DNA of 64,000 nucleotides, from positions 62,001 through 126,000 of the forward strand of contig JAKYXN010000002.1 in NCBI GenBank assembly GCA_022538095.1, in the 5' to 3' direction. Below the pieces are notes generated by a model. The model saw only the letters and a list, made by a program, of their open reading frames with translations. It did no database searches and was not told the DNA's origin. Positions 15,595 through 52,427 of the stretch are shown here, piece by piece. The translations under genes were made by a program, and so were the position numbers. Positions within the stretch are counted from its first letter, which is position 1, and the number at the start of each line of letters is the position of its first letter. Origin of the DNA: Puniceicoccaceae bacterium K14 (lineage in GTDB: Bacteria > Verrucomicrobiota > Verrucomicrobiia > Opitutales > Opitutaceae).

Positions 15595-15728
15595 ACAAAT
15601 TTTTCTGGGTGAACTTTTTTGTCGATTGTTTGTTAGAGAGAACGTGGCGGAGGGCGATTGATCGATCTCAGCATGGGTTTGTCACGTTAAGTAAGGGGCA
15701 GGCGGCATTTGGATTGACGTGTTATAGC

Positions 15729-15742: not shown

Positions 15743-15824
15743 CGGAGGCCCTGTTTGTTGCGGTTAGTGCCGGGAGTTCTAGTGGCGTCGAGCGATGCTA
15801 GCTCATATGTGACCCCTGTTTATA

Positions 15825-30570: not shown

Positions 30571-31990
30571 AAAAATAGGGAAGCTCGTTGGAATTGTCTT
30601 CTCGCTGATGTATTCGCAGTTAGCGGCTTCAGAACAGCCGAACGTTTTGCTCATCCTTGTAGACGATGCTGGATACAATGATTTTGGATTTATGGGAAGT
30701 CCTGACTTCGATACACCGCATATCGATCGCTTGGCGGAAATGGGGGTTGCTTTTACGGATGCGCATGTCAGCGCGAGTGTATGTAGCCCGTCGCGGGCAG
30801 GGTTGTTAACAGGACGCTATCAGCAGCGTTTCGGGCACGAGAACAATGTGCCGCCTCATACGGCGGGAATGGATGTCGCTGAATTGACCTTGGCAGATGT
30901 TCTTAAAACTGTTGGCTATCGAACGATTGCGATCGGGAAGTGGCATTTGGGAAATAGAAGCATGTATCATCCGAATACGCGTGGATTTGAGACGTTTTTC
31001 GGTTTTCTAGAAGGAGCGCGGGATTATTTTCCCAATCCGAGACAGGATGATCCCGAAGATTTTCGGGCTCTGTTGGAAAATCGAAAGCAGGTGAATTTCG
31101 AGGGATATCTAACGGACGTATTTACGGATAGAGTGATCGAGGAAATTGAGGTAGAGGATTCGCGCCCTTGGTTTATGTATTTGTCCTACAATGCAGTTCA
31201 TACCCCAATGCATGCCAAGGAAGAGGATTTGAAGCGTTTCGAAGGACATCCGAGACAAAAGTTGGCAGCCATGACTTACTCCCTCGATCAAAATATCGGC
31301 CGAATTTTGAGTACGCTAGATTCTCGTAAAGAATTAGATGATACTTTGATATTTTTTTTGAGCGATAACGGTGGGGCAGGGATGAGCAATAACCAGTCTA
31401 GCAATGCTCCTTTGAAGGGCTGGAAGGGTAATAAATTTGAAGGAGGGCATCGTGTACCGTTCGTCGTTTCGTGGCCTGCGAAGATAGAGGGGGACCGGCA
31501 TTTTTCGGGTTTGAGCAGCGCTTTGGATATTTTCGTGACTTCGATCGCGGCGGCTGGCGTTAACGAAGTCTTAGGCGAGCCTTTAGATGGCGTTGATCTT
31601 ATGCCCTATTTGAAAGGAAAGAAGAGGAGTGATCCGCACGAGGTGCTTTTTTGGCGGAAAGACTTGATGGCTGCCGTACGTATGGGCCCGTACAAATTGG
31701 TGCGTTTGGAAGGCTACGGTTATCGACTCTACAATTTGGATGAAGATTTGGCGGAAAGTCAGGATCTAAGCGAATCGTTGCCTGGTCTTGTGCGCGAGAT
31801 GGCAGATCGTATGACTCGATGGGAGAAGGAGTTGGAGGTTCCTTATTGGTGGGAAAATAAAGATTGGACTTCTGTTACTTACGAAATTCATCGCGCTCTT
31901 ATGGACAATGAAGATCCTCGATTCCGAAGTCCGAGAGAGAAGGCTGTATTCGAAAAGCGTACTTTAGAAAACGAGAGTGCGAGGCATTGA
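30560..31990 (+). CDS. Sulfatase B (S1 family)
   Basis: Exported sulfatase of 476 residues, signal peptide about 1-23 ending L-A-A-S. Formylglycine motif C-S-P-S-R with Cys75, followed by G-L-L-T-G-R. Metal ligands in V-D-D-A-G-Y (34-39) and F-L-S-D-N-G-G; substrate-pocket motif G-K-W-H-L-G near 130. Its ATG lies inside the GH2 gene (11-bp overlap), so the two are translated together and may act in sequence, desulfation exposing a galactoside or the reverse. It is closely related in its first 90 residues to sulfatase A. The regiospecificity is unknown. Confidence 0.94.
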   Translation: MKIEKIGKLVGIVFSLMYSQLAASEQPNVLLILVDDAGYNDFGFMGSPDFDTPHIDRLAEMGVAFTDAHVSASVCSPSRAGLLTGRYQQRFGHENNVPPHTAGMDVAELTLADVLKTVGYRTIAIGKWHLGNRSMYHPNTRGFETFFGFLEGARDYFPNPRQDDPEDFRALLENRKQVNFEGYLTDVFTDRVIEEIEVEDSRPWFMYLSYNAVHTPMHAKEEDLKRFEGHPRQKLAAMTYSLDQNIGRILSTLDSRKELDDTLIFFLSDNGGAGMSNNQSSNAPLKGWKGNKFEGGHRVPFVVSWPAKIEGDRHFSGLSSALDIFVTSIAAAGVNEVLGEPLDGVDLMPYLKGKKRSDPHEVLFWRKDLMAAVRMGPYKLVRLEGYGYRLYNLDEDLAESQDLSESLPGLVREMADRMTRWEKELEVPYWWENKDWTSVTYEIHRALMDNEDPRFRSPREKAVFEKRTLENESARH

Positions 31991-32160
31991 GATTCTGTAT
32001 ACGAATAATGATGAATATTAGACAAGTTTTAGGCTCAGCGTGAGTTTGCGGAAATAGTAATCACTAGTGTCCTGGAAACTGAAAGTAGTTCAATAGTGGA
32101 GGAATGTAAATAGATAGGAGAGGTCTTTCTAGGAGTTTCAACATATTAACACACACCATA

Positions 32161-34191: not shown

Positions 34192-37100
34192 TTACTTCGC
34201 GTTCTTTTTTGCGTAGTCTTTTGGACTGACTCCATATTCTTTTTTGAATACGCGGCTGAAGTAACTGGCGTCTAGGATACCGATGTGTTCTAGAGTTTCG
34301 GATACAGTGAAGTTTCCTGTTTTTAGTATTTGCGCTGCTCTCTTTAGGCGAATGGAGCGTATGAATAGACTGGGAGATAGATTTGTTAGGCCCTTGAGTT
34401 TTCGGTAGAGAGTAACTCGACTCATCGCCATCATTTCGGTAAAGGCTTTTACATCAAAGTCTTCGTTGCGCATGTTCTCTTCTATTAATGTGACGGCCTT
34501 TCTTAGAGTCCGCTGGTCAGAGCTTGTGACCGCTATCTCTGTAGGTTCAATGAGAGTTTGTTGAGAAAATGTTTCGCGGAGTTGGCGACGCGATTGAATT
34601 AGGTTATCTATTCTTGTTAAGAGTTTGTCGATTTCTATGGGTTTTTCGAAGTAGTCATCTGCTCCTTTTTCAATACCCTCTTTGTAATGGGCTTTGGCAC
34701 CGCGAGCGGTGAGGAGGATAATCGGGATATGTCGTGTTGCGTTTGTATTTTTTAACTGGTGACAAAGTTCTAATCCATCGAGTTTGGGCATCATGATGTC
34801 GCTTACGATGAGACTGGGAAGGTGCGTCTTTGCGAGTTCTAGTCCTTCGCTACCGTCCGCGGCTTCGATTGTGGGGTAGTGGTTACCTAATTGGTTTACT
34901 GTGAATTTTCTAAGGTCCTCGTTGTCTTCAATTACAAGTATGGAGTCTTGTTCGCTGTTTTGAGATTGAGTGTTTGAAACTGGGTTGGAAGGAAGTGAAT
35001 CCGTTGCCTGTTCTGTTACTGAAGTGGCTATGTGATTGATCCCTTTTATTGGTGGGTCTATTGGTATTGAGATTTGAACACATGTACCTTTAGTCTTTCC
35101 AATCGGAGGGCTGAAGATTTTTAGGTCTCCATCGTAGATCCTTACGATATCTTTTACATAGGCGAGGCCTATACCGTGGCCGCTGTGGGATTGCTGATTT
35201 GAGGATGCTCGGTAGTAGGGTTCGAAGACTGAATTTAATTTGTCTTTTTCGATGCCGATTCCGTTGTCAGATACTTTGAGCTCAAGGATGTCAGGTCCGT
35301 CAGTATTAGATTTTATCAACACTGAAATGTCTAGTTGGCCTCCTTCTGGTGTGTACTTGATCGCATTGACGAGGAGATTGTCTAGTAGGCTCTGTAGTTT
35401 AGGGGCATCGAAGGACGCATCGTAGCTATCGTGGCTGAAACTAAGATCTAGATTGAGTTTCTTTTCGTCTATGAGGATTTGGCTGTTGTTTATATCTTGT
35501 CGGAGGAAAGCTATGATGTCTCCGTTTATTGGAGAGTAACGCAGGATACCGAGTTCGACTTTTCTAAAATCTAGGAGCTGGTTTACTGTATCCAGCATTT
35601 TGTGAGCGTTTCTTCGGATCATTTCGAGCCGCTCGTTTTGATCTTTGTTTGGTCCGTCCTTAATGAGGCTTTCTGTGGGGCCTATGATAACTGCGAGTGG
35701 ATTGCGTAGTTCGTGTGATATTTTGCTGAAGAAATCCAGTTTGAAGGATTCCATTGCGAGGATGTGGCGTATGCGCGTTCGGTAGAGTGCGTAGACCAGC
35801 CCAATGACCGTAATGAAAAGAAGAATACTGGATACGATGAACCAAGGGCGTTTCCAAAGTATGGGAATGACTTGAAAATCGACTGTAGCGGGAGTTGGGT
35901 CGATGTTTAGGTCAACGTCTCGGGATCGGACCTGAAAGCGATGTGAGCCATTGGAGAGTCCTGTGAGGACCAGTTCTCGAGTTGAAGTAAACGGCGACCA
36001 TTTTTCCGAGTCCACGCGATATGAGAATTCAAGTAGGTCAGTACTGGTTTCTTCCCAATAATCGAGCCCCTCCCATTTTAGAGAAGTTGATCCGTATTCG
36101 TGCGCTTCGATTGGAGCTCGAGTGATGAGTGTTTCGGGATTCGAGCGATCCGCTTGATATCGAATTGTTTTGTGCTCTTTTGAGTGAGCTGACTCGGCTA
36201 ATTGAATTTCGACCAATCGATTTCGTGTACTATAGTTTAGCCATATCGCTCCATCACTCGTTGATTCGATGGTGGTTCCCTCACGATTGAATCTGAAGTC
36301 TCCAGGGATTGCTTTTTTCGTCCAAGTGGAGCCATCGAATCGGCTTAAGCCTTGGCTTGTGGCGACCAGCAAAGAGTCGTTTTCGCGAACAGTGTGAATG
36401 TATATCGCTTGATTGCTGATAAGGCCGTCGCGTTCGGTGAAAGACTCCCAGGACTTTCCGTCGAATCGGCTTACGCCGGCTCCCCACTTTGCGACCCAAA
36501 GGTTGTTTTGGTTGTCCAGAGCTAGATGATCTATCCAGTGGTTGCGGAAGCGCTCGACTATTTCTGGTCGTTTGTTCGATAGCGTTTCCCCTCTCTGGAG
36601 TGATCGACTTCCGTACCAAAGGCCTTGCTTCGGTTGCTCTACGATGGAGGCTGGTCTTTCCGGTTTGGGGATATGAATCTTTTCGATCAGATTACCATAA
36701 TCATCCAATTTGTAGGCAATGTATCCACCTGGGTGTTTAAACATAGAATCCGAGCCCGGGGGTGTGCCCGATCCGAAGAGGACGTAACCATCGGAAGTTT
36801 CGCAAACGGAGAGGTGACTGAAAAGAGTGGCAACGTTGGGGGAGTCGTCTCGCGTCCATTCTCCGTTTTTGTACCAAGAAACGCTCGCAATACCTTCATG
36901 CATTCCTGAGACCCAGATTGTTTGATCGGAACTTTCAAATATGCGATTGGGTCCCTCGATAACACCGTCTTTGCTTGCGAACTGTTTCCAATGTTCAGTT
37001 CTCGGGTCGTATTTTGTTACGCCTCCATTGTCTGAAAAGAACCAGAGTTTGCCTGAACTGTCTTCACAGGAAAGGTTCAAGTTTTCGTAGGTTTTCCATT

Positions 37101-38121
37101 TTTCTTCCGAAAAATTGACTATGAATGTCTTGGCGGCTTGGCCTGCTATAAGGATTCGCGAACCGGACATTGGAACTATGAATCCGTACGCATTGGGTAT
37201 TGGATAATCCGTGTCTCGATAGAGATGGTGGTCGCCATCTTTAAATTCAGTAAGAGCATTTCGACCTATGAGCAATAGATTGCCGTTTTCTCCTTCGGCT
37301 AGATTGGTTGAAATTTGGTTGATCGAAAATGTATCTGATAACTCCAGATGGTCTTTTTCTAATTCCGTGAATCGAAAAACTTTCATGACGTTTTTGCCTG
37401 AAATTTGATACCAAATGTCGCCGCTTCGGCCGGAATGCAGCTTTGCGAACGCCCCTCCGGCTCTCTGGCGATTCATTGGAAAATGTATAAGCTCTTCGCT
37501 CAGTTTCCCATTTTCATCGACTGAATGAACAGCTAGTTTGGATTTGCGATCATAGCTAAGCCAGAGTCGGTTTTGCGTATCGACTACAAGGGCATCGATG
37601 CTCTCTTGTGGGAGATTGACGGGCTGCGCTTCGCCTCCTTTGAATCGTAGTAGGCCGGATCTAGAGGCGAGCCAGACGGACCCATCTTTTGTTTCGGCTA
37701 AGGCCGAGGATGAATTTCTGTTGAGAGTTAGCTCCAGAAGGCGCGTCCAGGTTCCGTTTCGTAGCAGGGCTAAAAATCGATCTGTTAGTAGGTAAAGGTC
37801 TCCGTTTTGAGCGACGAGAATGGATTTTGCCGATTCTGCGGGCCAATCGGGGAAGTCGAATGAATCGGTTTTCCAGCCATTGTAAGAAACCACTCCCCAT
37901 GAACGTCCAAACCAAAGAGTGCCATTTTGCGCCTCGACTCCACATGTTATGCCGATTCCGCTGAGGGCTTCGATTTCTGACCACCGGTAAGTGTCTGCGA
38001 ACGAGGGACGGGAACGGATTGAGTCGTCACGATCGAGTGGCACTTTCGCCGCTGCAATCGAAGTTGCGCTGAAAATTGCGATGATCGTGTAGAGAATGTC
38101 TCTGAAGTTGTGTAAACGCAT
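34192..38121 (-). CDS. Hybrid two-component system regulator (HTCS): sensor, kinase, receiver and AraC domains in one protein
   Basis: Membrane sensor-regulator of 1309 residues. Signal peptide 1-24; a periplasmic region of two seven-bladed-propeller-type repeats (many W-x-A-x-x-x-G-V/L-S-R-F-D-G blades, about 40-670) and a Y_Y_Y-type Ig domain (about 680-750). One transmembrane helix follows (about 755-777), then the histidine kinase with His803 in I-S-H-E-L-R-N-P, the ATPase N-box (L-V-N-A-I-K-Y-T) and G-x-G boxes, a receiver domain with phospho-acceptor Asp1108 (V-S-D-I-M-M-P), and an AraC-type DNA-binding domain (about 1200-1305). Such proteins sense oligosaccharides in the periplasm and activate glycan-utilisation genes; they are best known from Bacteroidetes. 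It sits between the sulfatase blocks, divergent from sulfatase D, and probably controls them. Confidence 0.95.
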   Translation of the reverse strand: MRLHNFRDILYTIIAIFSATSIAAAKVPLDRDDSIRSRPSFADTYRWSEIEALSGIGITCGVEAQNGTLWFGRSWGVVSYNGWKTDSFDFPDWPAESAKSILVAQNGDLYLLTDRFLALLRNGTWTRLLELTLNRNSSSALAETKDGSVWLASRSGLLRFKGGEAQPVNLPQESIDALVVDTQNRLWLSYDRKSKLAVHSVDENGKLSEELIHFPMNRQRAGGAFAKLHSGRSGDIWYQISGKNVMKVFRFTELEKDHLELSDTFSINQISTNLAEGENGNLLLIGRNALTEFKDGDHHLYRDTDYPIPNAYGFIVPMSGSRILIAGQAAKTFIVNFSEEKWKTYENLNLSCEDSSGKLWFFSDNGGVTKYDPRTEHWKQFASKDGVIEGPNRIFESSDQTIWVSGMHEGIASVSWYKNGEWTRDDSPNVATLFSHLSVCETSDGYVLFGSGTPPGSDSMFKHPGGYIAYKLDDYGNLIEKIHIPKPERPASIVEQPKQGLWYGSRSLQRGETLSNKRPEIVERFRNHWIDHLALDNQNNLWVAKWGAGVSRFDGKSWESFTERDGLISNQAIYIHTVRENDSLLVATSQGLSRFDGSTWTKKAIPGDFRFNREGTTIESTSDGAIWLNYSTRNRLVEIQLAESAHSKEHKTIRYQADRSNPETLITRAPIEAHEYGSTSLKWEGLDYWEETSTDLLEFSYRVDSEKWSPFTSTRELVLTGLSNGSHRFQVRSRDVDLNIDPTPATVDFQVIPILWKRPWFIVSSILLFITVIGLVYALYRTRIRHILAMESFKLDFFSKISHELRNPLAVIIGPTESLIKDGPNKDQNERLEMIRRNAHKMLDTVNQLLDFRKVELGILRYSPINGDIIAFLRQDINNSQILIDEKKLNLDLSFSHDSYDASFDAPKLQSLLDNLLVNAIKYTPEGGQLDISVLIKSNTDGPDILELKVSDNGIGIEKDKLNSVFEPYYRASSNQQSHSGHGIGLAYVKDIVRIYDGDLKIFSPPIGKTKGTCVQISIPIDPPIKGINHIATSVTEQATDSLPSNPVSNTQSQNSEQDSILVIEDNEDLRKFTVNQLGNHYPTIEAADGSEGLELAKTHLPSLIVSDIMMPKLDGLELCHQLKNTNATRHIPIILLTARGAKAHYKEGIEKGADDYFEKPIEIDKLLTRIDNLIQSRRQLRETFSQQTLIEPTEIAVTSSDQRTLRKAVTLIEENMRNEDFDVKAFTEMMAMSRVTLYRKLKGLTNLSPSLFIRSIRLKRAAQILKTGNFTVSETLEHIGILDASYFSRVFKKEYGVSPKDYAKKNAK

Positions 38122-38418: not shown

Positions 38419-39912
38419 ATGATATCATATGCTAGGAACTGCACGGGCCTCATCGGCTTGATTTTATGTGCGGTCTTTTTATGGAGCTTGTTGGGCATTC
38501 GGTTGATTCATGCAGATGATTCTTTGGGAATCAGTAATAGAGATAAGTCGCCCAACATCATTTTTATTCTAGCAGATGATTTAGGTTACGGCGACTTGAG
38601 CTCCACAGGGCAGAAGTATTTTAAGACGCCCAATTTGGACCGTATGGCAGAGCAAGGAATGTTTTTCAGTCAACATTACTCGGGTAGCACAGTTTGCGCG
38701 CCGTCTCGTTCTTGTTTGATCACTGGCCAGCATACGGGGCACACGCCGATTCGTGGGAATAAGGAAATTCTTCCCGAGGGGCAGCATCCTCTTCCGGAGG
38801 CGGCTCCTTCGCTCCCTATAACTTTGAGTAAAGCGGGATATGTCACGGGAGCGTTTGGAAAGTGGGGATTGGGCTTTCCCGGTTCGGAAGGAGATCCCAT
38901 GAAGCATTTTGATCGGTTCTATGGGTATAACTGTCAACGAATTGGGCATCATTATTACCCGCATGCTATTTGGGATAATGACCAACAAGTTGAACTAGCT
39001 CCAAATGCCGGTTCGGCAAAGGGAGTGTACGCTCCGACTTTAATCCATGACCAGACGCTTCAGTTTATAGAGGATAATCGGGACCGACGTTTCTTTTGCT
39101 ACGTGCCCACTGTTATTCCTCATGCGGAGCTTGCTGCTCCTGAGGCATATATGAAGCAATTTCGTGGTGCGATTGAAGAAGGACTTCCCTATGAAGGATA
39201 TGATGAGGGAGTTGATTTTCGAAATGGGCCTTATCAGTCCCAGCCCGAGCCGAGGGTGGCCTTCGCGGCGATGGTCAGTCTTTTGGACCAGCAGGTTGGG
39301 GAAATACTAGACCTGTTGGAAAAGCTTGGGATTTCTGACAATACTCTGGTGGTCTTTTCCAGTGACAATGGTCCGCATCAAGAAGGCGGAGCCGATCCGG
39401 AATTTTTCCGTAGTAATGCAGGGTTTCGTGGATACAAAAGAGATCTCTATGAAGGAGGGATTCGGGTTCCTTTGATAGTCTGTTGGCCCGGAGAAATTGA
39501 AAATGGAAGTCGTTCAGATCATATATCCGCTTTTTGGGATTTCTTGCCAACGTTTGCTGAAATTGTAGGTGAAGTTGTTCCTGAGGGTATTGATGGGATT
39601 TCTCTTTTACCCACATTATTGGGGGAGGATGATAAACAAATTAAACACGACTATTTGTATTGGGAATTTCATGAGAGAGGGGGTCGAATCGCTCTGCGTC
39701 AGGGTGATTGGAAAGCGGTTAAGTATGATGTCCTTGAGAATCCAGATCGGCCTGCTGAGCTATACAATCTTGTCGCAGATCCAGGGGAAAAGGTGAACCT
39801 CGCAAACTCATACCCAGAGATATTGTCTCGTTTGGAGAGTCTTATGAAATCAGCTCGAACTGAATCGGATGTTTTCACATTTCAGCACAAGCAATATAAT
39901 GCGGAGAAGTAG
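38419..39912 (+). CDS. Sulfatase D (S1 family, arylsulfatase-like)
   Basis: Exported sulfatase of 497 residues, signal peptide or anchor about 1-32. Formylglycine motif C-A-P-S-R with Cys93, followed by C-L-I-T-G-Q-H. Metal ligands in A-D-D-L-G-Y-G-D (52-59) and S-S-D-N-G-P-H; the T-P-I-R-G-N segment after the motif is typical of the arylsulfatase A-like branch. It opens the plus-strand block behind the HTCS gene. Sulfatase F, two genes on, is a close paralogue with matching motif surroundings (H-Y-x-G-S-T-V-C) and C-terminal ends. Specificity unknown. Confidence 0.94.
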   Translation: MISYARNCTGLIGLILCAVFLWSLLGIRLIHADDSLGISNRDKSPNIIFILADDLGYGDLSSTGQKYFKTPNLDRMAEQGMFFSQHYSGSTVCAPSRSCLITGQHTGHTPIRGNKEILPEGQHPLPEAAPSLPITLSKAGYVTGAFGKWGLGFPGSEGDPMKHFDRFYGYNCQRIGHHYYPHAIWDNDQQVELAPNAGSAKGVYAPTLIHDQTLQFIEDNRDRRFFCYVPTVIPHAELAAPEAYMKQFRGAIEEGLPYEGYDEGVDFRNGPYQSQPEPRVAFAAMVSLLDQQVGEILDLLEKLGISDNTLVVFSSDNGPHQEGGADPEFFRSNAGFRGYKRDLYEGGIRVPLIVCWPGEIENGSRSDHISAFWDFLPTFAEIVGEVVPEGIDGISLLPTLLGEDDKQIKHDYLYWEFHERGGRIALRQGDWKAVKYDVLENPDRPAELYNLVADPGEKVNLANSYPEILSRLESLMKSARTESDVFTFQHKQYNAEK

Positions 39913-40018
39913 AAGGCATAATATTTTAGGGTTAAGCGGAATGGTAGATTTCAAATCTTCCCCATTGGATTTGTTTGGAGGAGAGGTGATCGGAGTCGGT
40001 TTTAATAGGATTCTAATA

Positions 40019-41551
40019 ATGAAAAAAGCAGTTTGTATCTTGTTTGTTCTTTGTTTGAAAATAGGCTCAGCTGTCGCGAGCAAAGATTCTTATCGAGACT
40101 TCGTTGTTGAGGAGCCTTTGGCCTCTGGGGAGAAGTCCAAAGCCATCAATGGAATTAAGCCTAATATTCTCTTCATTTTACTGGATGATTTTGGCTGGCG
40201 CGATGCAGGGTTTATGGGCTCAGATTTCTATGAGACTCCTGTAATTGATCAGCTTGCATCGGAGAGTGTAGTTTTTACGAATGCCTATGCGGCGGCTGCG
40301 AATTGCGCACCTAGTAGGGCTTCATTGTTGTCAGGTCAATATAGTCCAAGGCACGAAATATATAATGTTGGGACGAAACCGAGAGGATCGGCTGCCTGTC
40401 GACGCCTTGAGCATATATCAGGTAAAGAGTTTTTGGATGCTGAGTCTGATACATGGGCGAATGTTGCTCAAAAGGCTGGGTACGTAACTGGGATGATCGG
40501 CAAGTGGCATTTGAGTGAGGACCCACTTGATTACGGGTTTAGTTTTAACCTTGGGGGCGATCACCGTGGTAGCCCACCTGAGGGTTATTATTCTCCGCAT
40601 GTCGATGCTCCGGGGTTGGGTGAAGCTCCGGAAGGTGAATACATCACAGATCGATTGAATGATGAAGCCCTCAAATTTATTGAACGAAACAAGGGTAAAA
40701 GCTGGTTGCTTTATCTCTCGCATTTTGCGGTTCATACGCCGCTTGATGCAAAAAAAGAATTGCTTGATAAGTATCGCGAAAAAACGCCTGGAGAATTGCA
40801 TTCGCATGTCAATATGGCGACTATGGTAGAATGCCTCGATCAAGGAATCGGGCGAATTTTGGATGGGATTTCGCGATTGGGTTTGGACGAGAATACTATT
40901 ATTATTTTTTCGTCGGATAATGGCGGTTTCGGCCCTGCTACTGATATGTATCCTTTAAGAGGTTATAAAGGTACGTATTACGAAGGGGGTATTCGCGTTC
41001 CTCTTGTTGTTAAGTGGCCTGGAGTGGGCCGTTCTGGGATTAGGGTAGATAACCCCGTTACAGGAGTAGATCTGTATCCTACCCTTTGTGACATGATGAG
41101 GCATGATTTGCCCGCGGACCAAGTCATAGATGGTAGAAGTTTGCGTCCCTTGCTGGAAGGTTCCGAGGTCGAGAGGGTGGAGCAGCCTTTGTTTTGGCAT
41201 TTTCCAGCCTATCTACAGTCTTATTCTGGTGTGTTTGATGAGCAAAGAGATCCGCTGTTTCGTTCACGTCCGTGTAGTATCGTAAGGCTTGGCGATTGGA
41301 AATTACACTACTATTATGAAGATCAAGAGATGCTTCTTTTTAACTTAAAAATGGATATCGGTGAAAATGAGAATGTGGCGGGGACTTTTCCTGGTAAGGC
41401 TTCAAAATTGAAGCGTCTATTGGATGACTGGATATCTGTTACCGAGGCAGCTGTACCTGTGGCTAAGAACCCCCTTTTTGATGCGGAGGCTGAAAGGTTG
41501 GCGATCGAAAAGTTTACTAAGGGATCGATAGCAACTGATCAACTTCGTTAG
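40019..41551 (+). CDS. Sulfatase E (S1 family)
   Basis: Exported sulfatase of 510 residues. The ATG at 40019 is preferred because it gives a signal peptide (M-K-K-A-V-C-I-L-F-V-L-C-L); the open frame from 39869 overlaps the end of sulfatase D and adds no recognisable sequence. Formylglycine motif C-A-P-S-R with Cys96, then A-S-L-L-S-G-Q-Y. Metal ligands L-D-D-F-G-W (55-60) and F-S-S-D-N-G-G; G-K-W-H-L-S follows the core. A linker of about 25 residues separates the signal peptide from the catalytic domain. It lies 106 bp after sulfatase D. Specificity unknown. Confidence 0.93.
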   Translation: MKKAVCILFVLCLKIGSAVASKDSYRDFVVEEPLASGEKSKAINGIKPNILFILLDDFGWRDAGFMGSDFYETPVIDQLASESVVFTNAYAAAANCAPSRASLLSGQYSPRHEIYNVGTKPRGSAACRRLEHISGKEFLDAESDTWANVAQKAGYVTGMIGKWHLSEDPLDYGFSFNLGGDHRGSPPEGYYSPHVDAPGLGEAPEGEYITDRLNDEALKFIERNKGKSWLLYLSHFAVHTPLDAKKELLDKYREKTPGELHSHVNMATMVECLDQGIGRILDGISRLGLDENTIIIFSSDNGGFGPATDMYPLRGYKGTYYEGGIRVPLVVKWPGVGRSGIRVDNPVTGVDLYPTLCDMMRHDLPADQVIDGRSLRPLLEGSEVERVEQPLFWHFPAYLQSYSGVFDEQRDPLFRSRPCSIVRLGDWKLHYYYEDQEMLLFNLKMDIGENENVAGTFPGKASKLKRLLDDWISVTEAAVPVAKNPLFDAEAERLAIEKFTKGSIATDQLR

Positions 41552-41729
41552 CCTCAAGTCTTTCAGCGAGCTTTATGAAATCTCTTTTAATTTTATCTGG
41601 TGGATTTGGCTTCGGACATTGATTCTGTTGTCCACTTAAAAGCGTTGTGCGAGAATTTATTTAATGATGTTGAAATTTATAAATAATAAATGGATACGAC
41701 AATCGTTTGTATCGAGGAGACGTTTCCCC

Positions 41730-43172
41730 ATGTTTTTAAATGAATGCTTTGGCCGTTTGTTGATAGCATTGGTCTTGATGGGCCGATTGGTTGGGGTAAC
41801 TTTCGTGTTGGTTTTTGGTTGTAGCTATGTTTTGGGCACAAATAGACCTAATATTGTTTTTATAATGGCTGACGACCTTGGTTACGGAGATGTTGGCTTT
41901 AACGGGCAGACTCATATCAAAACGCCGCATATTGACCGTTTGGCGGTCGAGGGTATGGTTTTCTCTGATCACTATGCTGGTTCGACGGTTTGTATGCCAT
42001 CGCGTTGCAGTCTATTAACGGGCAAGCACATGGGCGTAGCCACTGTGCGGGGCAATCCTCGTTGGACTGCGACGGGCAAGCCGATTGACTTGGCGCCTTC
42101 TGACGTGACGGTAGCTGAAGAGCTGAAGAAAGCCGGATACCGTACTGGAATTGTGGGTAAATGGGGTCTTGCCGAAGGGAGCGATGAAGGTTTGCCAACG
42201 CGGCAAGGGTTTGATTTTTTCTACGGATACAGAACGCATCGCGAAGCTCACCATTACTACTGGTCAGAGCCCTGGCGGGGTGAAACTAAGGAACCGGTCG
42301 ATGGCAATGACGTGCAGACAAAGTCTGGCAAGTATTTGCAGGATTTGTTTACAGCCGAGGCATTGGGCTTTGTTCGAGAATCTGCGAATGATGCGAGACC
42401 TTTTTTCCTCTATGTGGCTTACGCGGCGCCACATTATGAACTGACGGTGCCGGAGGACTCGAAGGCTCCTTACAAAGATCTTGGCTGGCCCAAACGTCCG
42501 ATGAAGCAAGGAGGGCATTATCTGCATGACGAAGAAGGCAATGTAACTTACGCAGGGATGGTTTCTCGGATGGATAGTGATATTGGGCGGTTGCTTGATT
42601 GCCTGGTGGAGATGGGACTCGATGAGAATACAATAGTCATGTTTACCAGCGACAATGGACCGGAGTACGAGAAGCGTGATGCTTTTTTTGATAGCAACGG
42701 AATTTATCGCGGAGGCAAACGAGAACTATATGAAGGGGGAATTCGTGTACCGATGGTGGTTCGTTGGCCAGGTGTGATTGAGGCTGGTTCTACTACATCT
42801 ATCGTCTCGGCATTCGAAGATTTTTTGCCCACTGCTTGTGAACTAGCGGGCGTTAGCCCGAGCGATCCAGAGGTTACGGGTGTTTCGTTGGTACCGACTT
42901 TGAGAGGGAATGAAGCCGATCAGGTAGAATCCGCTTTTCGATATTGGGAATTTAATGAAAGAGAGGGGCCGCTGCAAGCAATACGCATGGGGGATTGGAA
43001 AGCAGTTCGATTCGTCGGAAATCGAACGGAGCTTTATAACTTGGAGGACGATCCGAGCGAGACAATGGATGTCGCTCGCAAGTATCCGGAGGTTTTAGAA
43101 AAGCTTGAAAAGGCGATCAATCTAGCTCGAACTGAGCATGCTGGTTTTCCGTTGGTGAAGCGATCGGAGTGA
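41730..43172 (+). CDS. Sulfatase F (S1 family), paralogue of sulfatase D
   Basis: Exported sulfatase of 480 residues from the ATG at 41730. This start has a GAGGAG Shine-Dalgarno sequence (41714-41719) 10 nt upstream and a hydrophobic signal peptide; an earlier ATG at 41664 has neither a ribosome site nor a good signal sequence in first position. Formylglycine motif C-M-P-S-R with Cys88, followed by C-S-L-L-T-G-K-H. Metal ligands A-D-D-L-G-Y-G-D and T-S-D-N-G-P-E. It resembles sulfatase D along most of its length (both have Y-W-E-F at the start of the C-terminal domain and G-D-W-K-A-V after it), indicating an old duplication around sulfatase E. Confidence 0.92.
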   Translation: MFLNECFGRLLIALVLMGRLVGVTFVLVFGCSYVLGTNRPNIVFIMADDLGYGDVGFNGQTHIKTPHIDRLAVEGMVFSDHYAGSTVCMPSRCSLLTGKHMGVATVRGNPRWTATGKPIDLAPSDVTVAEELKKAGYRTGIVGKWGLAEGSDEGLPTRQGFDFFYGYRTHREAHHYYWSEPWRGETKEPVDGNDVQTKSGKYLQDLFTAEALGFVRESANDARPFFLYVAYAAPHYELTVPEDSKAPYKDLGWPKRPMKQGGHYLHDEEGNVTYAGMVSRMDSDIGRLLDCLVEMGLDENTIVMFTSDNGPEYEKRDAFFDSNGIYRGGKRELYEGGIRVPMVVRWPGVIEAGSTTSIVSAFEDFLPTACELAGVSPSDPEVTGVSLVPTLRGNEADQVESAFRYWEFNEREGPLQAIRMGDWKAVRFVGNRTELYNLEDDPSETMDVARKYPEVLEKLEKAINLARTEHAGFPLVKRSE

Positions 43173-43270: not shown

Positions 43271-44326
43271 ATGAATAAAAAAGGTGTCATTGTTTTCTGT
43301 TTTTTCTTTTTGGGCATTTGCCTTGGCCAATCTAGTGAGTTGAAATTTGAATACCTGGGAAAGGCAGTGGAAACGAAAGGTATGCATGTTTGGGGGTCGT
43401 CGCCGGTGATCGGGCCAGAAGGTAAAGTGCATCTATATGTGGCTCGTTGGGCGATGGCGACGCAGAAGAATTTTAGTGGTTGGTTCAAGGACTGCGAAAT
43501 TGCTCACTACGTGAGTGATAAGCCGGAAGGACCTTTTGAATTTGTCCGAGTTGCCGTAGAGGATGTGGGAGGCGACTTCAATTCACCGCACAATCCAACG
43601 ATAAAGAAGATAGATGGAAAGTACGTACTTTGCTTCATTGTGAATGAAAATAGTCTGCTGGAGACGCAGCGTATTATTATGTATGTCGCGGACGATTTGA
43701 GCGATAAGTGGAAGCCGGCTAGTGGAGCAGAGAGTGATGGAACTATTCTACGAAAATCTACTGAGTCCGCTGATTGGAATTTCACAGCCCAAAAGGGAGT
43801 GACCAATCCTTCTTTGGTTAAGCACAACGGTAAATATCTTTTGTACGACAAGTCTGTGGTCAAACTTACTCCTGGGGCAAAACAGAGTAAATTTGTCTAT
43901 GGTGTGGCTGTATCGGATCAGCTAGAAGGCCCCTATACGCACTATCCTGAGCGAGTGACTCGTGGATCAACATGGCTCGAAGATGTCTATGCGTTTAGCA
44001 TGGATGACTCAGTTTACCTACTTAGCCGAGATTTCGCTGGGACAATGGGTTCCCGTGGTGGCGGGTTGTTGTGGAAGTCCAAAGATGGATTCGCATTTGA
44101 CGAAAAGAATACCACGCGTGCGTACGAAGACCTAGCGCACTATGTTGAGGAAGGAACTTTAGATTCTGTGAATACGTACAGAGGTAGTGCGGATGGTCAC
44201 CTTGAACGAGCTCAGGTCCTATTGATCAATGAGGAACCCGCGTATCTTTATTTAGCAACAGGAGTCAATACGAGGCCTGGTTACGGTAGTTGCTCACATG
44301 TGTTTAAAATTATAAAAACTAATTGA
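43271..44326 (+). CDS. Exported beta-propeller glycosidase-like protein (GH43/GH117-like)
   Basis: Exported protein of 351 residues, signal peptide about 1-19 (V-F-C-F-F-F-L-G-I-C-L-G). The sequence repeats strand patterns of a five-bladed propeller: S-S-P-V-I-G-P-E-G-K-V-H-L-Y, P-H-N-P-T-I-K-K-I-D-G-K-Y-V-L, T-N-P-S-L-V-K-H-N-G-K-Y-L-L, E-D-V-Y-A-F-S-M-D-D-S-V-Y-L. This layout, with Asn/Asp-Pro at blade starts, is that of GH43, GH32, GH68 and GH117 enzymes, but the clear catalytic Asp of GH43 is not obvious. Only one base separates its stop from the GH29 fucosidase start, so the pair is surely co-translated. It probably cleaves a linkage next to fucose; the family assignment is uncertain and may be new. 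Confidence 0.65.
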   Translation: MNKKGVIVFCFFFLGICLGQSSELKFEYLGKAVETKGMHVWGSSPVIGPEGKVHLYVARWAMATQKNFSGWFKDCEIAHYVSDKPEGPFEFVRVAVEDVGGDFNSPHNPTIKKIDGKYVLCFIVNENSLLETQRIIMYVADDLSDKWKPASGAESDGTILRKSTESADWNFTAQKGVTNPSLVKHNGKYLLYDKSVVKLTPGAKQSKFVYGVAVSDQLEGPYTHYPERVTRGSTWLEDVYAFSMDDSVYLLSRDFAGTMGSRGGGLLWKSKDGFAFDEKNTTRAYEDLAHYVEEGTLDSVNTYRGSADGHLERAQVLLINEEPAYLYLATGVNTRPGYGSCSHVFKIIKTN

Positions 44327-44327
44327 T

Positions 44328-45740
44328 ATGAGTATGAGAAAAATTAAAATATCTGTTTTGGTAATTATTTTGTCATTACAATGTTTTGTGTTTGGTGATC
44401 CCGTCTCAAGTCTGCCCGAAGATGGTATTTCTGATGAGAGGGAGGCGAGAATGGCTTGGTGGCGTGAAGCGCGTTTTGGAATGTTTGTTCATTGGGGGCT
44501 TTACTCAGGACTTGCTGGAACTTGGAAGGGAGAAATGGTTGGAGATCGAGGAGGTATGGAATGGATCCAAAGCAAAGTGAAGGCGGATACTTGGGAGTAT
44601 GCTCATGAAGCTGTTCCTTATTTTCGCCCGATCGAGGGGTTTGCGGACGAGTGGGCTAAGTTAGCTCGAGAAGCGGGCTGTAAGTATGTCGTTTTCACTA
44701 CAAAACACCACGATGGGTTTGCTCTACACGATTCGAATGTGAGCACCTACGACGCGAAAGACTTGGTTGGGAGGGACTTGTGTAAGGAAATTACTGATTC
44801 GATTAGAGCAGAAGGTTTGAAGGTAGGTTTTTATCATTCTGTGATCGATTGGCATCATCCGCAGTATGACTATGTGGCGGCTGGTCTTTTGCCACATCCT
44901 CTCAAAGAGAAGCCGAGTCCGAATGGGGCGCGTAATCATAAACTCTACGTTGACTATCTACACACGCAGGCTGAGGAGCTGATGTCTAACTACGGCGATG
45001 TCGATATTCTTTGGTGGGACTATTCGAAAAAGGATGCGGCTGGAGAGTTCTGGGAGGCTGAAAAACTGATGGATATGGTGCGAAGCAATCAACCAAATAT
45101 CGTAAGTAACAATCGGCTTTATCCTATAACTTCTCCGAGTGAGTCCTCTAAGCTGGATAGATTGAAGCAGTGGAATCCCGAACACGGCGATTTTACGACT
45201 CCTGAGCAGCATATCCCTGCAACTGGTATTTCGGGAGTAGATTGGGAAGTGTGCATGACAATGAATGGCACTTGGGGGTTCAGTGATCACGACCACAATT
45301 GGAAGACCGATAGGGTCTTGATTCGAAACCTTGTGGATATCGTATCCAAAGGAGGGAACTATCTTCTTAATATTGGTCCAAGAGGAGATGGAACCATCCC
45401 AGAAGAAAGTCTGAAGGCGATGGCAACAATTGGTAAATGGATGAACGTGAATTCAGAAAGTATATACGGTACACAAGCGAGTCCGTTTGAGACTCCTGCT
45501 TGGGGACGATATACGAGGAAGGAAGGGGAGCTGTATGCGCATGTGTTCGATTGGCCAGAAGATGATAAACTTATTGTGGGTTCTAAGGAGATGAAAGTCT
45601 CAAAAGCTTATCTGCTAGCAGACGAGAATGAATCAGAGCTCTCAATCGAGAAAACGGAAAAAGGTTTGGTTTTGCATCTCCCGCAAACTGCTCCAGATGA
45701 GAATGTTTCTGTAGTGAAAATCGAATACGAAAGATTGTAA
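44328..45740 (+). CDS. GH29 alpha-L-fucosidase 1
   Basis: Exported exo-alpha-L-fucosidase of 470 residues, signal peptide 1-23 (V-L-V-I-I-L-S-L core). TIM barrel with family marks: R-F-G-M-F-V-H-W-G (49-57), K-Y-V-V-F-T-T-K-H-H-D-G-F (119-131), F-Y-H-S-V-I-D-W-H-H-P (168-178), and the nucleophile Asp231 in I-L-W-W-D-Y-S. The W-G-F-S-D-H-D segment and L-L-N-I-G-P-R-G-D-G (sugar-binding loop) are intact. A short C-terminal beta domain follows. The acid/base residue is not conserved in sequence across GH29 and was not assigned. Its start lies one base after the propeller-glycosidase stop. It removes terminal fucose, probably after desulfation by neighbouring sulfatases. Confidence 0.94.
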   Translation: MSMRKIKISVLVIILSLQCFVFGDPVSSLPEDGISDEREARMAWWREARFGMFVHWGLYSGLAGTWKGEMVGDRGGMEWIQSKVKADTWEYAHEAVPYFRPIEGFADEWAKLAREAGCKYVVFTTKHHDGFALHDSNVSTYDAKDLVGRDLCKEITDSIRAEGLKVGFYHSVIDWHHPQYDYVAAGLLPHPLKEKPSPNGARNHKLYVDYLHTQAEELMSNYGDVDILWWDYSKKDAAGEFWEAEKLMDMVRSNQPNIVSNNRLYPITSPSESSKLDRLKQWNPEHGDFTTPEQHIPATGISGVDWEVCMTMNGTWGFSDHDHNWKTDRVLIRNLVDIVSKGGNYLLNIGPRGDGTIPEESLKAMATIGKWMNVNSESIYGTQASPFETPAWGRYTRKEGELYAHVFDWPEDDKLIVGSKEMKVSKAYLLADENESELSIEKTEKGLVLHLPQTAPDENVSVVKIEYERL

Positions 45741-46095: not shown

Positions 46096-47556
46096 ATGAT
46101 TCTAAAAAACAAATATAGATCTGTCCTTACTTTTGTATCCACGCTTGCGTTTCTGAGTGCTTTTTCAACCTCAGAACCTCAAAAACCAAATGTCCTCGTC
46201 TTTCTAGTTGATGACTTAGGCTACATGGATATTGGGGCAAACAATCCAGAGTGTTTCTATGACACGCCAAACGTAGATAGCCTCGCTCGTACAGGTGTTC
46301 GATTTACTGACGGATACGCAGCAAACCCGGTTTGTTCTCCAACCCGCTACGCTCTGATGACTGGAAAGTACCCATCTCGAGTGGATGCCACAAATTTTTT
46401 CTCTGGTCGCCATAGTAAAACTTTCGACCCAGCTCCCTTGAACGATCATATGCCTCTTGACGAAATTACAATAGCTCAAGTTTTGAAGGGCGAGGGCTAC
46501 GCTACCTACTTTGCCGGGAAATGGCACCTTGGAAATTCAGAAGAGTATTATCCTCAAAATCGTGGATTCGATTTCAATATAGGTGGGCACAAAATTGGCG
46601 GACCGTATACGGGAAATAAATACTTCTCGCCATTTGAGAATCCCCAGTTGATTCCGGATAGCCCCGAGGGCGAGCACTTGCCAGATCGACTCGCTCGAGA
46701 AACGGCGAAATTTATCGATGACCACAAAGATCAACCTTTTTTCGCTTACCTTTCTTTCTACTCCGTACATACGCCATTGATGGGGCGCCCGGATTTGGTA
46801 GAGAAATATGAGGCGAGGGCGAAAGAAATAGTAGGTGAGGAGTTTACTACCGATGAGCAAGTATATGGAGACAAGGAGCGTTTCGTCCGAATTTTGCAGA
46901 ATCATGCCGTGTACGCCGCGATGGTGGAAGCGATGGACGAGGCGGTAGGAAAAGTCCTACAACAGCTCGAAGATTCTGGAGTAGCGAACAACACGATTGT
47001 TGTATTTACTTCTGACAATGGTGGCTTGTCTACTGCGGAGGGAAGCCCGACAAGTAACTCGCCGCTTCGTGGTGGCAAGGGATGGGTACACGAGGGCGGT
47101 ATCCGGGAACCTTGGATCATTCGATACCCTGGTGTTGCGCAGGCAGGAACAATTAGCTCGGAGCAAATTTGCTCAATCGACCTCTTTCCTACACTCGCCG
47201 CCGCATCCGGAGCCACGGTAGCGCATGAAATCGATGGGTTGAGTTTAATACCTGTTTTGAAAGGCGAGTCACTCGCTCGTCGGTCATTGTTTTGGCACTA
47301 CCCCCACTATAGCAACCAGGGTGGTATTCCCGGAGGAGCCATTCGAGAGGGAGATTATAAGCTTTTTGAACGCTATGAAGATGGGCGTGTGCATCTTTAC
47401 AATTTGAAAGAAGACATTGGGGAGCAGAATGACCTCGCCGCGCACTATCCTGAGAAAGTGGCTCAAATGCGGGCACGTCTTCACGCTTGGTATAAGGAAG
47501 TCGATGCGAAATTTCTCCAAAAAAAGGAGGATGGCCCGGAGCCGTGGAAACCTTAG
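46096..47556 (+). CDS. Sulfatase G (S1 family)
   Basis: Exported sulfatase of 486 residues, signal peptide about 1-26. Formylglycine motif C-S-P-T-R with Cys80, followed by [11 protein letters not shown], a form common in one arylsulfatase branch. Metal ligands in V-D-D-L-G-Y-M-D (38-45) and T-S-D-N-G-G. The G-K-W-H-L-G pocket motif is near residue 140. It has its own promoter region of 355 bp and converges with the GH95 gene so tightly that the two stop codons overlap (TAG on this strand, TAA on the other, sharing CTTAG). Specificity unknown. Confidence 0.94.
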
Positions 47557-50081
47557 TGAGTAAGGCTATGTATTAATTTGCTGCCTAGATCATAGGATTC
47601 TCCTTTTTGAGTTTCTATCGTTGTGAGGTTCTCGGCATAACGCAATTTGCACGGATTTCCTAATTTCGACCGGAGTGTTGCTGATACTAGTTTTCCGCTC
47701 TTCCACTCCATATCGACTTCAAAGCCACCCCGTGTGCAAAGGCCTTTGACTGAGCCATCGGACCACGCGGCTGGCAAGCTCGGTAACAGCTCTATGACTC
47801 CTGCGTGTGACTGGAGCAGCATTTCTGCTATGCCTGCCGTGCTGCCAAAGTTGCCATCGATTTGGAAGGGGGCGTGTTTGTCGAACAGGTTATTGTAGGT
47901 CGACTTCTTGAGAAGCATAACCAAATTATGGTGAGCTTTTTCGGCGTTCTGAAAGCGTGCCCAAAAATTGATTATCCATGCGCGGCTCCATCCGGTGTGT
48001 CCGCCGCCTTGGGATAAACGCTCGTCGATGGATTTCCGAGCCGCAGCAACCATTTCAGGATTGTCGTAGAGGTTGTACTGACGCCCGGGATGCAGGCCAA
48101 ATAGATGCGATATATGGCGGTGTCCTTTTTCTACTTCCTCGAACTCCTTCGTCCACTCCATCAAGCGTCCATCTGTACCCACTTTAGGCAGCGTTAGATT
48201 GTTGAGTGCTCTTTCGACCTTTTGGGTGAAGGCTGAATCTATCTCTAGAATTGAGGCTGCTTCGAGTGTATTGGTAAAAAGGTCCCAGATTATTTGCTGA
48301 TCCATGGAAGGCCCCATTGTTAGATTTGAGAATAGCTTTTTGCTGCGCAACAAATCATCTCGCTGTAGGTTAGTCGTGAATTTCCCTTTTATCGCCTGAA
48401 GTTCTTTTGAGTACTCGGATGTGGATACGCCAGGTAGAAGAAACTTGTTTTCTGGCGAGGTGCTTGGACCAGAAACTAACTTGGCTGTTTCCGGGTCTTC
48501 TACGAGCCAATCAAGGAAGAAGAGGGATGCTTCTTTTAGGATGGGGTAGGCGCGTTCCTGGAGGAAAATTTTGTCTCCCGTAAAACGATAGTGCTCCATG
48601 AAGTGCTGTGTAGACCAGGCTCCTCCAACAACCCATTGACCGTACTGAACTAGCCCGAAGGGAACGGTCCCATGCCAGATGTCAGAGGTATGCCCAGCAA
48701 AGAAGCCTCTGTTGCCGTATAGATTTTTTGCGGTCTTTTGGCCCGAAGGGACGAGCCGTTCGATATAATCCATAAATGGAAGATGGCATTCGGAGAGATT
48801 GGTCGTCTCCGCCGGCCAATAGTTCATCTGCGCATTGATGTTTAAGTGGTAGTCGCTGTTCCACGGTGCCTCTAAATCTTTGCACCATATTCCTTGAAGA
48901 TTAGCTGGCAGGGAGCCTTCTCTTGAGGATGTTATGAGGAGGTATCGACCGTATTGAAAGTAGAGGGCTTCAAAGTCTGGATCGACTTCTAAGGGGGCAG
49001 GATTTGTGGGATCGCTATTGGTGTAGCCATAGAGTCGCTCCAATGTTGAATTTTCAGAAGGGGTTCCGAGTTGTAGAGAGACTCGTCGAAAGAGTTTTTG
49101 GTGGGCTGCGACGGAGTCTTCTTTTAAGTGGGTGTAGCCTTTTTTCTGTGCAGCGGAAATTGTGCGTTCGCACTCTTTGACTAGATTTTTCGTAAGCGGG
49201 TTTGTGGTGTCATTGCGATTATAGTCGGTATTCGCAGCTATATATATTGTAACTGTATCAGACGCTTGAACACGAATTGCTCCGTCTTTGATTAGCGAAG
49301 ATCCATTTTGGGTAACGACTTTGTAGACGGTGGCAAACTTTACGCCAAGCTGGGTGTCTCCATGAGATGCTTGGCCTTGGGCAATAAGAGAGTGGTTCCC
49401 TTTGGTCTCGACTTCGAAGATCCCGTCGCGCTCAACGTTTGCAGTGAAGGATATCGATCCTGGCTTGTCGGCTGTGATGCGAATGGTGATTAGGTCATCG
49501 ATTGGGCTCGCTGTAACTTCACGAATATATCTGATGCCATTTATTGTGAATTGGGTCGTAGTTATAGCGGTATCAAGATTGAGATCTCTGCAGTACGAAG
49601 TTGCTTGATCGGTGAATCCAAAGTCGAATCTCAGCGCTCCCATCGTTTGGTAACTTCGCGGAGATACGCGGTCGGCCATGATTGTTTGCTGAAGAGCTTG
49701 CCCCTCCGTGTATTTTCCTGCGAAAAGAAGCGAGCGAACGTTATCAATCGTTTCGCTGACATTTTGCTTCACTTCTGGAATGGGAGGGCCCGCCCAAATG
49801 GACTCTTCATTTAGTTGAATGATTTCCTTCGAAACTCCCCCGTAGACCATGGCTCCAAGACGTCCGTTTCCGATAGGTAAGGCTTCTTCCCAGTGGGTCG
49901 CAGGCTGCTTGTACCAAAGTGAAAGTCGCTCGTCCGGCGATTGGTTCAGGGGTAGAGTTTCGGCTATCTCACTGTAGTTGAATTTACTTACTTTTTCAAT
50001 TTTAGGGGAAGCGAGAGCAGTTGTAGCTTGAAGAGTGAAAGCATATGCAATCGCACTCAGAATGAGTAACGAAATTTTCAT
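47553..50081 (-). CDS. GH95 alpha-L-fucosidase
   Basis: Exported fucosidase of 842 residues that would remove terminal alpha-1,2-linked L-fucose by inversion (some members take L-galactose). Signal peptide 1-25. The N-terminal beta domain begins [21 protein letters not shown] (56-76), the family hallmark. The helical barrel holds the catalytic groups: Asn residues in [11 protein letters not shown] (about 413-424), acid Glu in S-P-E-N-K-F (about 542) and Asp in Q-I-D-G-N-F-G (about 740). The gene stands alone on its strand, convergent with sulfatase G. A strong 11-bp inverted repeat lies just upstream of its start and may regulate it. With the two GH29 enzymes it gives three fucosidases of two folds. 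Confidence 0.95.
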
Positions 50082-50621: not shown

Positions 50622-50975
50622 TGGTGGAGGTGGCGGGAATCGAACCCGCGTCCCTCGAGCCTTCTTGCAAAGCGTCTACATGCTTGTCGTCGTTTTTAAT
50701 CTTACCCTCGGATCGCGACAACGCACGCTTTCCTTTGGGCCAGTCCGCTGATGAAGTACGGCTAGAGCGCAACAGGCAGCCGCTCTGGCTATGCTCGCTA
50801 GTCGTCGCTCCCGTTACCTAGCGAGTATCGGTAGGGGAACGTAGCTGAACTATGCAGCTAGAGGCATTTCTTCAGATGTGCCATTTGTGTTTTTAATGGA
50901 GGTTTAACGAGGCCAACCATTATCCTCGGCATGCAGCCAGACATTCCAACTTGAGGTCGAATCCAGGGCACCCCC
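50622..50975 (-). ncRNA. ssrA: Transfer-messenger RNA (tmRNA)
   Basis: One-piece tmRNA of about 354 nt that rescues stalled ribosomes and tags the unfinished protein for proteolysis. The 5' end GGGGGUG pairs with CACCUCC before the 3' ACCA (one G-U pair); the conserved CUGGAUUCGAC follows the 5' arm and GGGUUCGAUUCCCGCC forms the T arm near the 3' end. The reading frame inside ends N-G-T-S-E-E-M-P-L-A-A then UAG (50850-50885), a proteolysis tag with the usual L-A-A end. The resume codon is uncertain (ACA, AAU or GGC). A GCGAGC-TTC-GCTCGC hairpin (50980-50994) sits just before the 5' end in the precursor. Short open frames overlapping this gene are spurious. Confidence 0.96.
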
Positions 50976-51350: not shown

Positions 51351-52427
51351 TTGACTGATAGACAGCCTGATCATTTTTCTCATCGTGTTACTCTCAAGGA
51401 TATTGCTGTGAAGGCAAAGCTGAGTGTAGCGTCGGTTTCGATGGCTCTACGAGATAACCCGCGTTTGCCAGCGAGTACCGTTGATAGAGTGAAGCTTCTC
51501 GCCGAGGAGCTGGGGTATGTCCCGGATCCAGCACTGTCTGCTCTGGCTGCGCATCGAAGTCGGGTGCGTGTGTTTCGAGACTTTTCAGTGGTGGCACTTG
51601 TTTCGAATTGGTCTACAAAGGATGCGTGGGCGTCTTTGCCAAGCGCTCAACAATTTATAGAGGGAGCTCGCGCTCGCGCTCGAGAGCTTGGATACAGCTT
51701 GCAGCATCACTGGGCTAAGGCTGATGGGGTCTCAGCTGCGCGGTTTAGTGATATTCTTCGGGCGAGAGGCATTCGTGGGGTGTTGCTGGCTCCGTCTGAG
51801 TTTCCTGAGACGAAGTTGGAGCTGGACTGGGAATCGTTTTCTGTTGTGACGATGGAACGTAATGCACAGTTCCACCATCTTGTGCCGAATCATTATGAGG
51901 ATTTGCTTTTGTGTTGGAAGAAAGTGCGTTCTTTTGGCTATGAGCGAGTGGGGCTTGCTGTCCGTAAGGATCTGGCTATTCGATGGAGCAACCAATGGGA
52001 GGCTGCGTACGCGTATGCTTGTGCGAATGCAAAGAAGAACCTTGTTTCGATTCCGACTTTAGAGCTTTCCGAGGATAATCCTGTGAAGCAGCTTCGTGAG
52101 TGGATCAGAGCTTATCGTCCACAAGTTGTGATCGGGCGCTGTGACAATTTTATAGAAGCGGCTAATGCTGAGGGGCTGGAAGTGCCTAGAGATATTGGAT
52201 ACGTCAGTTTGAACCTTATTGATGATGTGCCGGAAGCGTCAGGGATTGATCAACATCGAGGGATAATGGGAGCTGTTGCTATTGATGTGTTGAATTCTTT
52301 GCTGCAGCGTAATCAAAGCGGATTTCAGCCTGCTTCTATTGGGACGCAAATTGACGGTACTTGGCGAGTGGGTTCCACTTTGTCAAAGGCTGTTCCCCAG
52401 CCAGTTGTAAACACTAGTGGCGAGTGA
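51351..52427 (+). CDS. LacI-family transcriptional regulator 2
   Basis: Regulator of 358 residues starting with TTG; the next in-frame Met is inside the recognition helix, so TTG is the only sensible start. HTH: T-L-K-D-I-A-V-K-A-K-L then V-A-S-V-S-M-A-L-R-D, followed by the hinge helix L-L-A-E-E-L-G-Y-V-P-D-P. The effector domain is of the type 1 periplasmic-binding fold. It is a paralogue of LacI 1 (shared P-D-P-A-x-S-A-x-A-A segment and similar effector domain). It converges with the GH29 2 gene 13 bp away and is the nearest regulator to the operon ending there. It may be the protein that binds the paired sites at 57514 and 57684, but this is only proximity. Confidence 0.9.
   Translation: MTDRQPDHFSHRVTLKDIAVKAKLSVASVSMALRDNPRLPASTVDRVKLLAEELGYVPDPALSALAAHRSRVRVFRDFSVVALVSNWSTKDAWASLPSAQQFIEGARARARELGYSLQHHWAKADGVSAARFSDILRARGIRGVLLAPSEFPETKLELDWESFSVVTMERNAQFHHLVPNHYEDLLLCWKKVRSFGYERVGLAVRKDLAIRWSNQWEAAYAYACANAKKNLVSIPTLELSEDNPVKQLREWIRAYRPQVVIGRCDNFIEAANAEGLEVPRDIGYVSLNLIDDVPEASGIDQHRGIMGAVAIDVLNSLLQRNQSGFQPASIGTQIDGTWRVGSTLSKAVPQPVVNTSGE

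Follow-up and report, generated by a model that had tools for sequence, protein, structure and literature searches.

A widespread family of predicted five-bladed propellers, related to GH117 and GH43 but with altered catalytic residues, recurs beside GH29 fucosidase genes

Fucose-containing sulfated polysaccharides (FCSPs) decay slowly and act as a store of carbon in the sea, and little is known about the enzymes of the last steps of their breakdown. In the stretch of DNA analysed here, a window of 64,000 nucleotides from Puniceicoccaceae bacterium K14, a gene for a 351-residue protein of propeller type stands directly before a gene for a GH29 alpha-L-fucosidase, with sulfatase genes on both sides. 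This arrangement raises the question of which kind of protein the propeller is and what it might contribute next to the fucosidase. The features of the locus on which the answer depends are collected in Table 1.

Table 1. Genes of the propeller/GH29 locus (window coordinates)
Feature	Position	Strand	Remarks
GH2	28117-30570	+	part of the 28117-34035 stretch
Two sulfatases	30560-31990, 32161-34035	+	follow the GH2 gene
Hybrid two-component regulator	34192-38121	-	Reg_prop, HisKA, HATPase, receiver, AraC-type HTH
Three sulfatases	38419-39912, 39869-41551, 41664-43172	+	PF00884; directly upstream of the propeller gene
Propeller protein	43271-44326	+	351 aa, five-bladed
GH29 alpha-L-fucosidase	44328-45740	+	470 aa; PF01120 263.8 bits
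Sulfatase	46096-47556	+	PF00884 match; downstream of the propeller/GH29 pair
GH95 (alpha-L-fucosidase / alpha-L-galactosidase family)	47553-50081	-	Glyco_hydro_95_cat 546.9 bits
Second GH29 of the locus	52441-54309	-	PF01120 match, contig C221:115230-116198

With its sulfatases, GH95 gene, second GH29 gene and hybrid regulator, which likely controls it, the locus looks as expected for FCSP use, the mark of which is the occurrence of GH29 and/or GH95 together with sulfatases. Across the source genome there are 14 matches to GH29 and 53 rows of sulfatase matches, and the bacterium seems to be a degrader of sulfated fucose sugars of the seaweed type. Comparable loci have been described in the literature, which is represented here by excerpts of the cited papers. 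The predicted FCSP loci of Flavobacteriia combine GH29 and GH95 with GH117, GH43, GH2, GH97 and others, and GH43 'beta-xylosidases' are among the genes that co-occur there (PMC6298971), while the GH29 genes of Verrucomicrobiota are surrounded by sulfatases, one group of them being adjoined by a 'GH43_12 (xylosidase)' (PMC8857213). The present locus fits both types, and GH43 xylosidases are what the excerpts of these two papers name in them. In the literature searched, which covered few subscription papers, no propeller family of the present kind was found described for fucan loci, nor was an assignment to a recently created numbered GH family; a search of PMC12872454, PMC13380512 and PMC12549532 yielded no relevant GH43 or GH117 passage.

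The last base of the propeller gene's stop codon is 44326 and the GH29 gene begins with its ATG at 44328, which agrees with the earlier note, made from the sequence alone, that one base separates the two genes. Its naming of the downstream product as a GH29 fucosidase was likewise right, given the PF01120 score in Table 1; Pfam additionally matched a C-terminal domain in this protein, and its best solved relative is the alpha-L-fucosidase 6gn6 (1.4e-97). No terminator-like site was found between the two genes, and a promoter-like match at 44323-44350 straddles the junction, in a region where the number of such matches is about at chance level (six against a chance mean of 4.9). With only one base and no terminator-like site between the genes, co-translation of propeller and fucosidase, as proposed in the earlier note, is plausible as a candidate arrangement; the one-base spacing is not conserved in close orthologs. 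That the propeller ORF is a real gene is supported by 14 loci of the genome collection, which encode a protein 60-73% identical to it. Its N-terminus is, by eye, hydrophobic and signal-like, and the protein would accordingly be a candidate for export.

The association with GH29 was surveyed in ten genomes chosen for holding the family, which together contain 47 clear family members and 212 GH29 matches (family matches below 76 bits, GH29 matches below 100 bits and GH43 matches below 80 bits were omitted, and rows that had been split were joined; what is counted for GH43 and GH29 is matches, a few of which share one ORF). A GH29 match on the same strand within 1.5 kb accompanies 10/47 family members, compared with 3/58 GH43 matches from these ten genomes and 2/51 sulfatases of the window's own genome (Fisher p 0.017 and 0.012, respectively, ignoring relatedness). 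This excess is modest, shrinks at 5 kb (16/47 family members, 10/58 GH43 matches and 11/51 sulfatases), and leaves 37 of the 47 members with no same-strand GH29 within 1.5 kb. The propeller precedes GH29 by 18 bases on contig C11 of the window's genome, where it is a paralog about 30% identical to the window propeller, and by 0 bases in L081, and the reverse order occurs with spacings of 14 (L085), 18 (L084) and 70 bases (L083); these distances were measured from the first possible start codons, and in L082 the place of the propeller is taken by a spurious ORF. Because six of the seven spacing regions had been preselected for a nearby GH29, the spacings are illustrative and do not amount to a count. 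The window's genome has three family members, two of them directly before a GH29 gene and one before sulfatases.

A similar picture emerged from the 14 close-ortholog loci, which contain a sulfatase in 12 cases, GH117 in 7, GH95 in 6 (weak in L004), GH29 in 5 and GH2 in 4, and which thus much resemble the glycosidase content of the FCSP loci excerpted from PMC6298971. In 4 of the 14 the neighbouring gene is a GH29, which lies upstream at a distance of 90-468 bases, and other close orthologs adjoin sulfatases, GH95, GH117, GH2 or esterases; among neighbours scanned singly were GH97, GH116 and beta-helix proteins with GH141-type insertion domains. A fixed propeller-GH29 operon was rejected, as gene order and presence vary. 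The link to GH29 is recurrent and functional-looking, and it is not obligatory.

As to the protein itself, an AlphaFold2 model computed with 20 sequences from the window and the loci as input reached a pLDDT of 88.1 and a pTM of 0.88, and this predicted model has the five-bladed fold of GH117. Five blade-start motifs are visible in the protein, the blades beginning near residues 41, 107, 178, 237 and 312. When the model was compared with the PDB by Foldseek, the best 18 chains were all GH117, below which came 5hx0 (function unknown), GH93 and then GH43, GH130 and GH137 entries. By VIA, nine GH117 entries reached Z 27.3-28.0, at an rmsd of 3.0-4.4 across 283-301 residues, and the next rows were a 1,2-beta-oligomannan phosphorylase (25.0), BT_0996 (24.9) and a GH159 (24.8). 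The blade pattern read from the letters in the earlier note is therefore borne out, and the comparison with GH43 and GH117 structures that it had called for places GH117 nearest. GH117, GH43 and GH62 together constitute clan GH-F (PMC9278983).

The sequence comparisons point in the same direction. A profile of 20 relatives matched the GH117 entry 3p2n at 1.5e-11, but GH43 no better than at 5.5e-5, and a profile of 53 members aligned with nine GH117 proteins from neighbouring loci, recognised by the match of their own profile to 4ak5 (1.5e-69), with an E of 3.9e-30 across 291 columns in register. For 28 local GH43 segments, some of which are duplicates from overlapping loci, the same profile gave 1.9e-13 over 226 columns. 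The 53-member alignment omits the duplicate L001, L019, and fragments shorter than 300 aa (two from L011, one from L012 and one from L025), and no family ORF was obtained for it from loci L030 and L045. A tree of 68 rows has all 53 members together on one side of a branch supported at 98/97, whereas its nine GH117 rows (100/98) and its six GH43 rows (100/99) form branches of their own, so that the propeller, despite its nearest solved fold and profile, does not cluster with the GH117 sequences. The window propeller's own group within this tree comprises 17 rows (100/100) with records from Planctomycetota, Kiritimatiellota, Pseudomonadota and Bacteroidota, a mixture of phyla which suggests that the gene has moved between them. 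In the same tree, a protein of genome G227, which belongs to the window's phylum, is identical to that of a Pontiellaceae record, as would be expected if this phylum is Verrucomicrobiota. Of 288 genomes taken from the window's phylum, 50 have family matches; among the genomes listed for the window's taxonomic family, 2 of 22 have a match, the window's genome included, which makes the distribution patchy. The propeller thus represents a real, widespread and uncharacterised family near GH117 and GH43, in which catalytic residues are replaced as follows.

The residue map was derived from alignment; GH117 numbering was anchored on 4ak5 together with the printed mutants 4ak6 (H302E) and 4ak7 (E303Q). 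Offset local matches prompted consideration of a blade-shifted register, which would put D238 and E312 at the modulator and acid places of GH43. The shifted alternatives of hhalign score far worse than the in-register alignments, both for GH117 (4.2e-14 and 9.1e-13 versus 3.9e-30) and for GH43 (2.7e-9 versus 1.9e-13), and the in-register map was therefore used as the more probable one. Across the family alignment, W41, H107, N108, N179, P180, E237, D238 and R313 are invariant in 53/53 members, and near-invariance was found for E312 (52/53), H54 and W60 (51/53 each), K194 (50/53), and E76 and R134 (48/53 each). The candidate active-site residues are H54, E76, H107, N108, N179, K194, E237, D238, E312 and R313.

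Measured against GH43, none of the 53 members has an acid in columns 41-44, where the general base Asp of blade 1 would be expected, and the pKa-modulating Asp of blade 3 is replaced by N179 in every one of them, P180 aligning with the Pro of the IDP motif; the acid Glu of blade 4 is kept throughout as E237, aligned with the Glu of EGP. The earlier remark that a GH43 triad is not evident thus holds: as far as the alignment tells, neither base nor modulator is retained, and a Glu occupies the acid place, as it does in GH43. Measured against GH117, Lys260 corresponds to K194, the blade-5 Arg to R313 and Glu303 to the carboxylate of D238, but Asp90, Asp245 and His302 are replaced by Gly/Cys42, Asn179 and Glu237, which leaves the family with E237-D238 in place of the GH117 acid pair His302-Glu303 and with Gly or Cys in place of its base. 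In GH117, Asp90 serves as base and His302 as acid, with Glu303, Asp245 and Lys260 also having roles, and Glu303 could rival Asp90 for the catalytic water in one conformation of the substrate (PMC11574756). With Asp90 gone and D238 at the place of Glu303, D238 is the natural candidate for the base and E312 the second. The analogy is weakened by the conclusion of the same paper, as excerpted, that the GH117 base is Asp90, not Glu303 (PMC11574756).

The reading preferred here, to which we would give a probability of about 0.6, is that the propeller is an exo-glycosidase of an uncharacterised GH-F-like family, which alternates with the GH29 enzyme on FCSP oligosaccharides. According to this proposal, the family would be an exported sister of GH117 and GH43 that removes a terminal, possibly sulfated, sugar from FCSP oligosaccharides, with the GH29 fucosidase of the pair and the sulfatases of the locus acting in turn. 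E237, which aligns with the acid Glu of GH43 and with His302 of GH117, would protonate the leaving group; the role of the missing blade-1 base would pass to D238 or to E312 of blade 5, and K194 and R313 would have been retained for binding. That the propeller attacks the bond beside fucose, as the earlier note suggested, is guesswork. A bolder version of the proposal can be put forward only tentatively: that the propellers form a new exo-glycosidase family of sulfated-fucan breakdown, with the base moved to D238 or E312 and GH29 as a recurrent partner, and that they are what lies behind some of the 'GH43 beta-xylosidase' labels given to genes of fucan loci, which would then belong to the propeller family. 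As a widespread family recurrently found beside GH29, the propellers are a clear candidate for one missing step of FCSP breakdown, and they would test how a propeller glycosidase works after losing its blade-1 base.

The most serious competitor, possible though clearly less probable than the preferred reading, is membership in the large 'GH43-like' group (cd08994) outside CAZy, of which the endo-xylanase CbE1Xyn43-l of Clostridium boliviensis is the first characterised member (PMC11022575); the propeller would then cut xylose-containing stretches of a sulfated xylofucan. CbE1Xyn43-l has been modelled as a five-bladed propeller in which the acid Glu240 is followed by Asp241, conserved in most aligned proteins, and in which Asn190 replaces the pKa-modulating Asp, as Asn does in all 38 GH43-like proteins compared (PMC11022575). 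By this description, N179 and E237-D238 match Asn190 and Glu240-Asp241, so that the residue pattern of the propeller is not wholly unseen, and the GH43 'beta-xylosidases' of FCSP loci (PMC6298971) would suit such a role. However, CbE1Xyn43-l also has an assigned GH43-type base, Asp74, and a CBM6 (PMC11022575), whereas no acid stands at the start of blade 1 in 53/53 members, the position of Asp74 being unplaced in the present alignment, and Pfam finds no CBM6 in the 351 residues of the propeller. The earlier proposal of a new family is consequently supported in part: the propellers have their own branch against the GH43 and GH117 sequences compared, but CbE1Xyn43-l, as described in print, carries a similar signature, so that the family is a candidate new one.

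It is improbable that the propeller is simply a diverged GH43 beta-xylosidase or arabinofuranosidase, even though GH43 resembles it in fold and in the place of the acid Glu and has a weak Pfam match to it. The window propeller scores 26.7 bits against PF04616, under the gathering score of 32.2; by hand count 23 of the 47 family members in the ten genomes pass the Pfam GH43 cut-off, as do 5 of 9 further members scanned, and in alignment A1 every one of the 20 members has a GH43 match with E <=0.01. Membership in GH43 was nevertheless rejected, because two of the triad places, base and modulator, are lost in 53/53 aligned members, and it is opposed also by the separate branch of the GH43 sequences and by the closer approach of GH117 in both sequence and fold. 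Since nearly half of the surveyed members exceed the cut-off although the aligned members lack base and modulator, GH43 annotations assigned automatically to genes of fucan loci may be misleading. NCBIfam gave no match at cut-off for the window propeller or nine further members.

The same loss of two out of three GH43 catalytic places would also be compatible with a non-catalytic propeller whose task would be to bind sulfated sugars and hand them over to GH29, and the conserved basic residues H54, R134, K194 and R313 could bind sulfate. Against this idea, for which we see as little probability as for a diverged GH43 enzyme, stand the carboxylates E237 and D238 (53/53) and E312 (52/53), which lie at the starts of inner strands, the site of the pocket in this fold.

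Identity as a GH117-type exo-alpha-1,3-3,6-anhydro-L-galactosidase is highly improbable. GH117, as represented by the 3,6-anhydro-L-galactosidases 4ak5 and 3p2n and by 4u6b, does provide the best match in fold and profile, but membership was rejected on the replacement of Asp90, Asp245 and His302, and the GH117 genes in 7 of the 14 close-ortholog loci argue that the two families coexist. A GH130-like phosphorylase, which the lost base and the conserved basic residues had brought into consideration, appears unlikely, as oligomannan phosphorylases reach Z 25.0 versus 28.0 for GH117 and the signal-like N-terminus speaks against it.

Several minor observations concern the family and its locus. Family propellers of about 600 aa are encoded at L006:14728-16548 and L009:10862-12676, the former with an alpha/beta-hydrolase or esterase-like domain fused in front, and the adjacent ORFs L011:15118-15513 and 15470-16237 (146 and 293 bits) together resemble a single family propeller that a frameshift has interrupted. 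Four close-ortholog loci contain, near the close ortholog, another member of the family with 36-44% identity to the window propeller (L004:3333-4427, L010:12619-13782, L015:3811-4869 and L017:14940-16049), which indicates repeated paralogs per locus. Within the window locus, a tmRNA gene (50622-50975, minus strand; Rfam RF00023 145.6 bits, tag GTSEEMPLAA) sits between GH95 and a regulator that by eye looks LacI-type (51351-52427). tmRNA genes are frequent integration sites, and given this position the locus may be a mobile island. At the edge of the window lies an alpha-L-rhamnosidase-type gene (126-2456, minus strand; Bac_rhamnosid6H), adjoined by a gene at 2491-4503 on the same strand whose product is 29% similar to the SASA-type esterase of locus L006.
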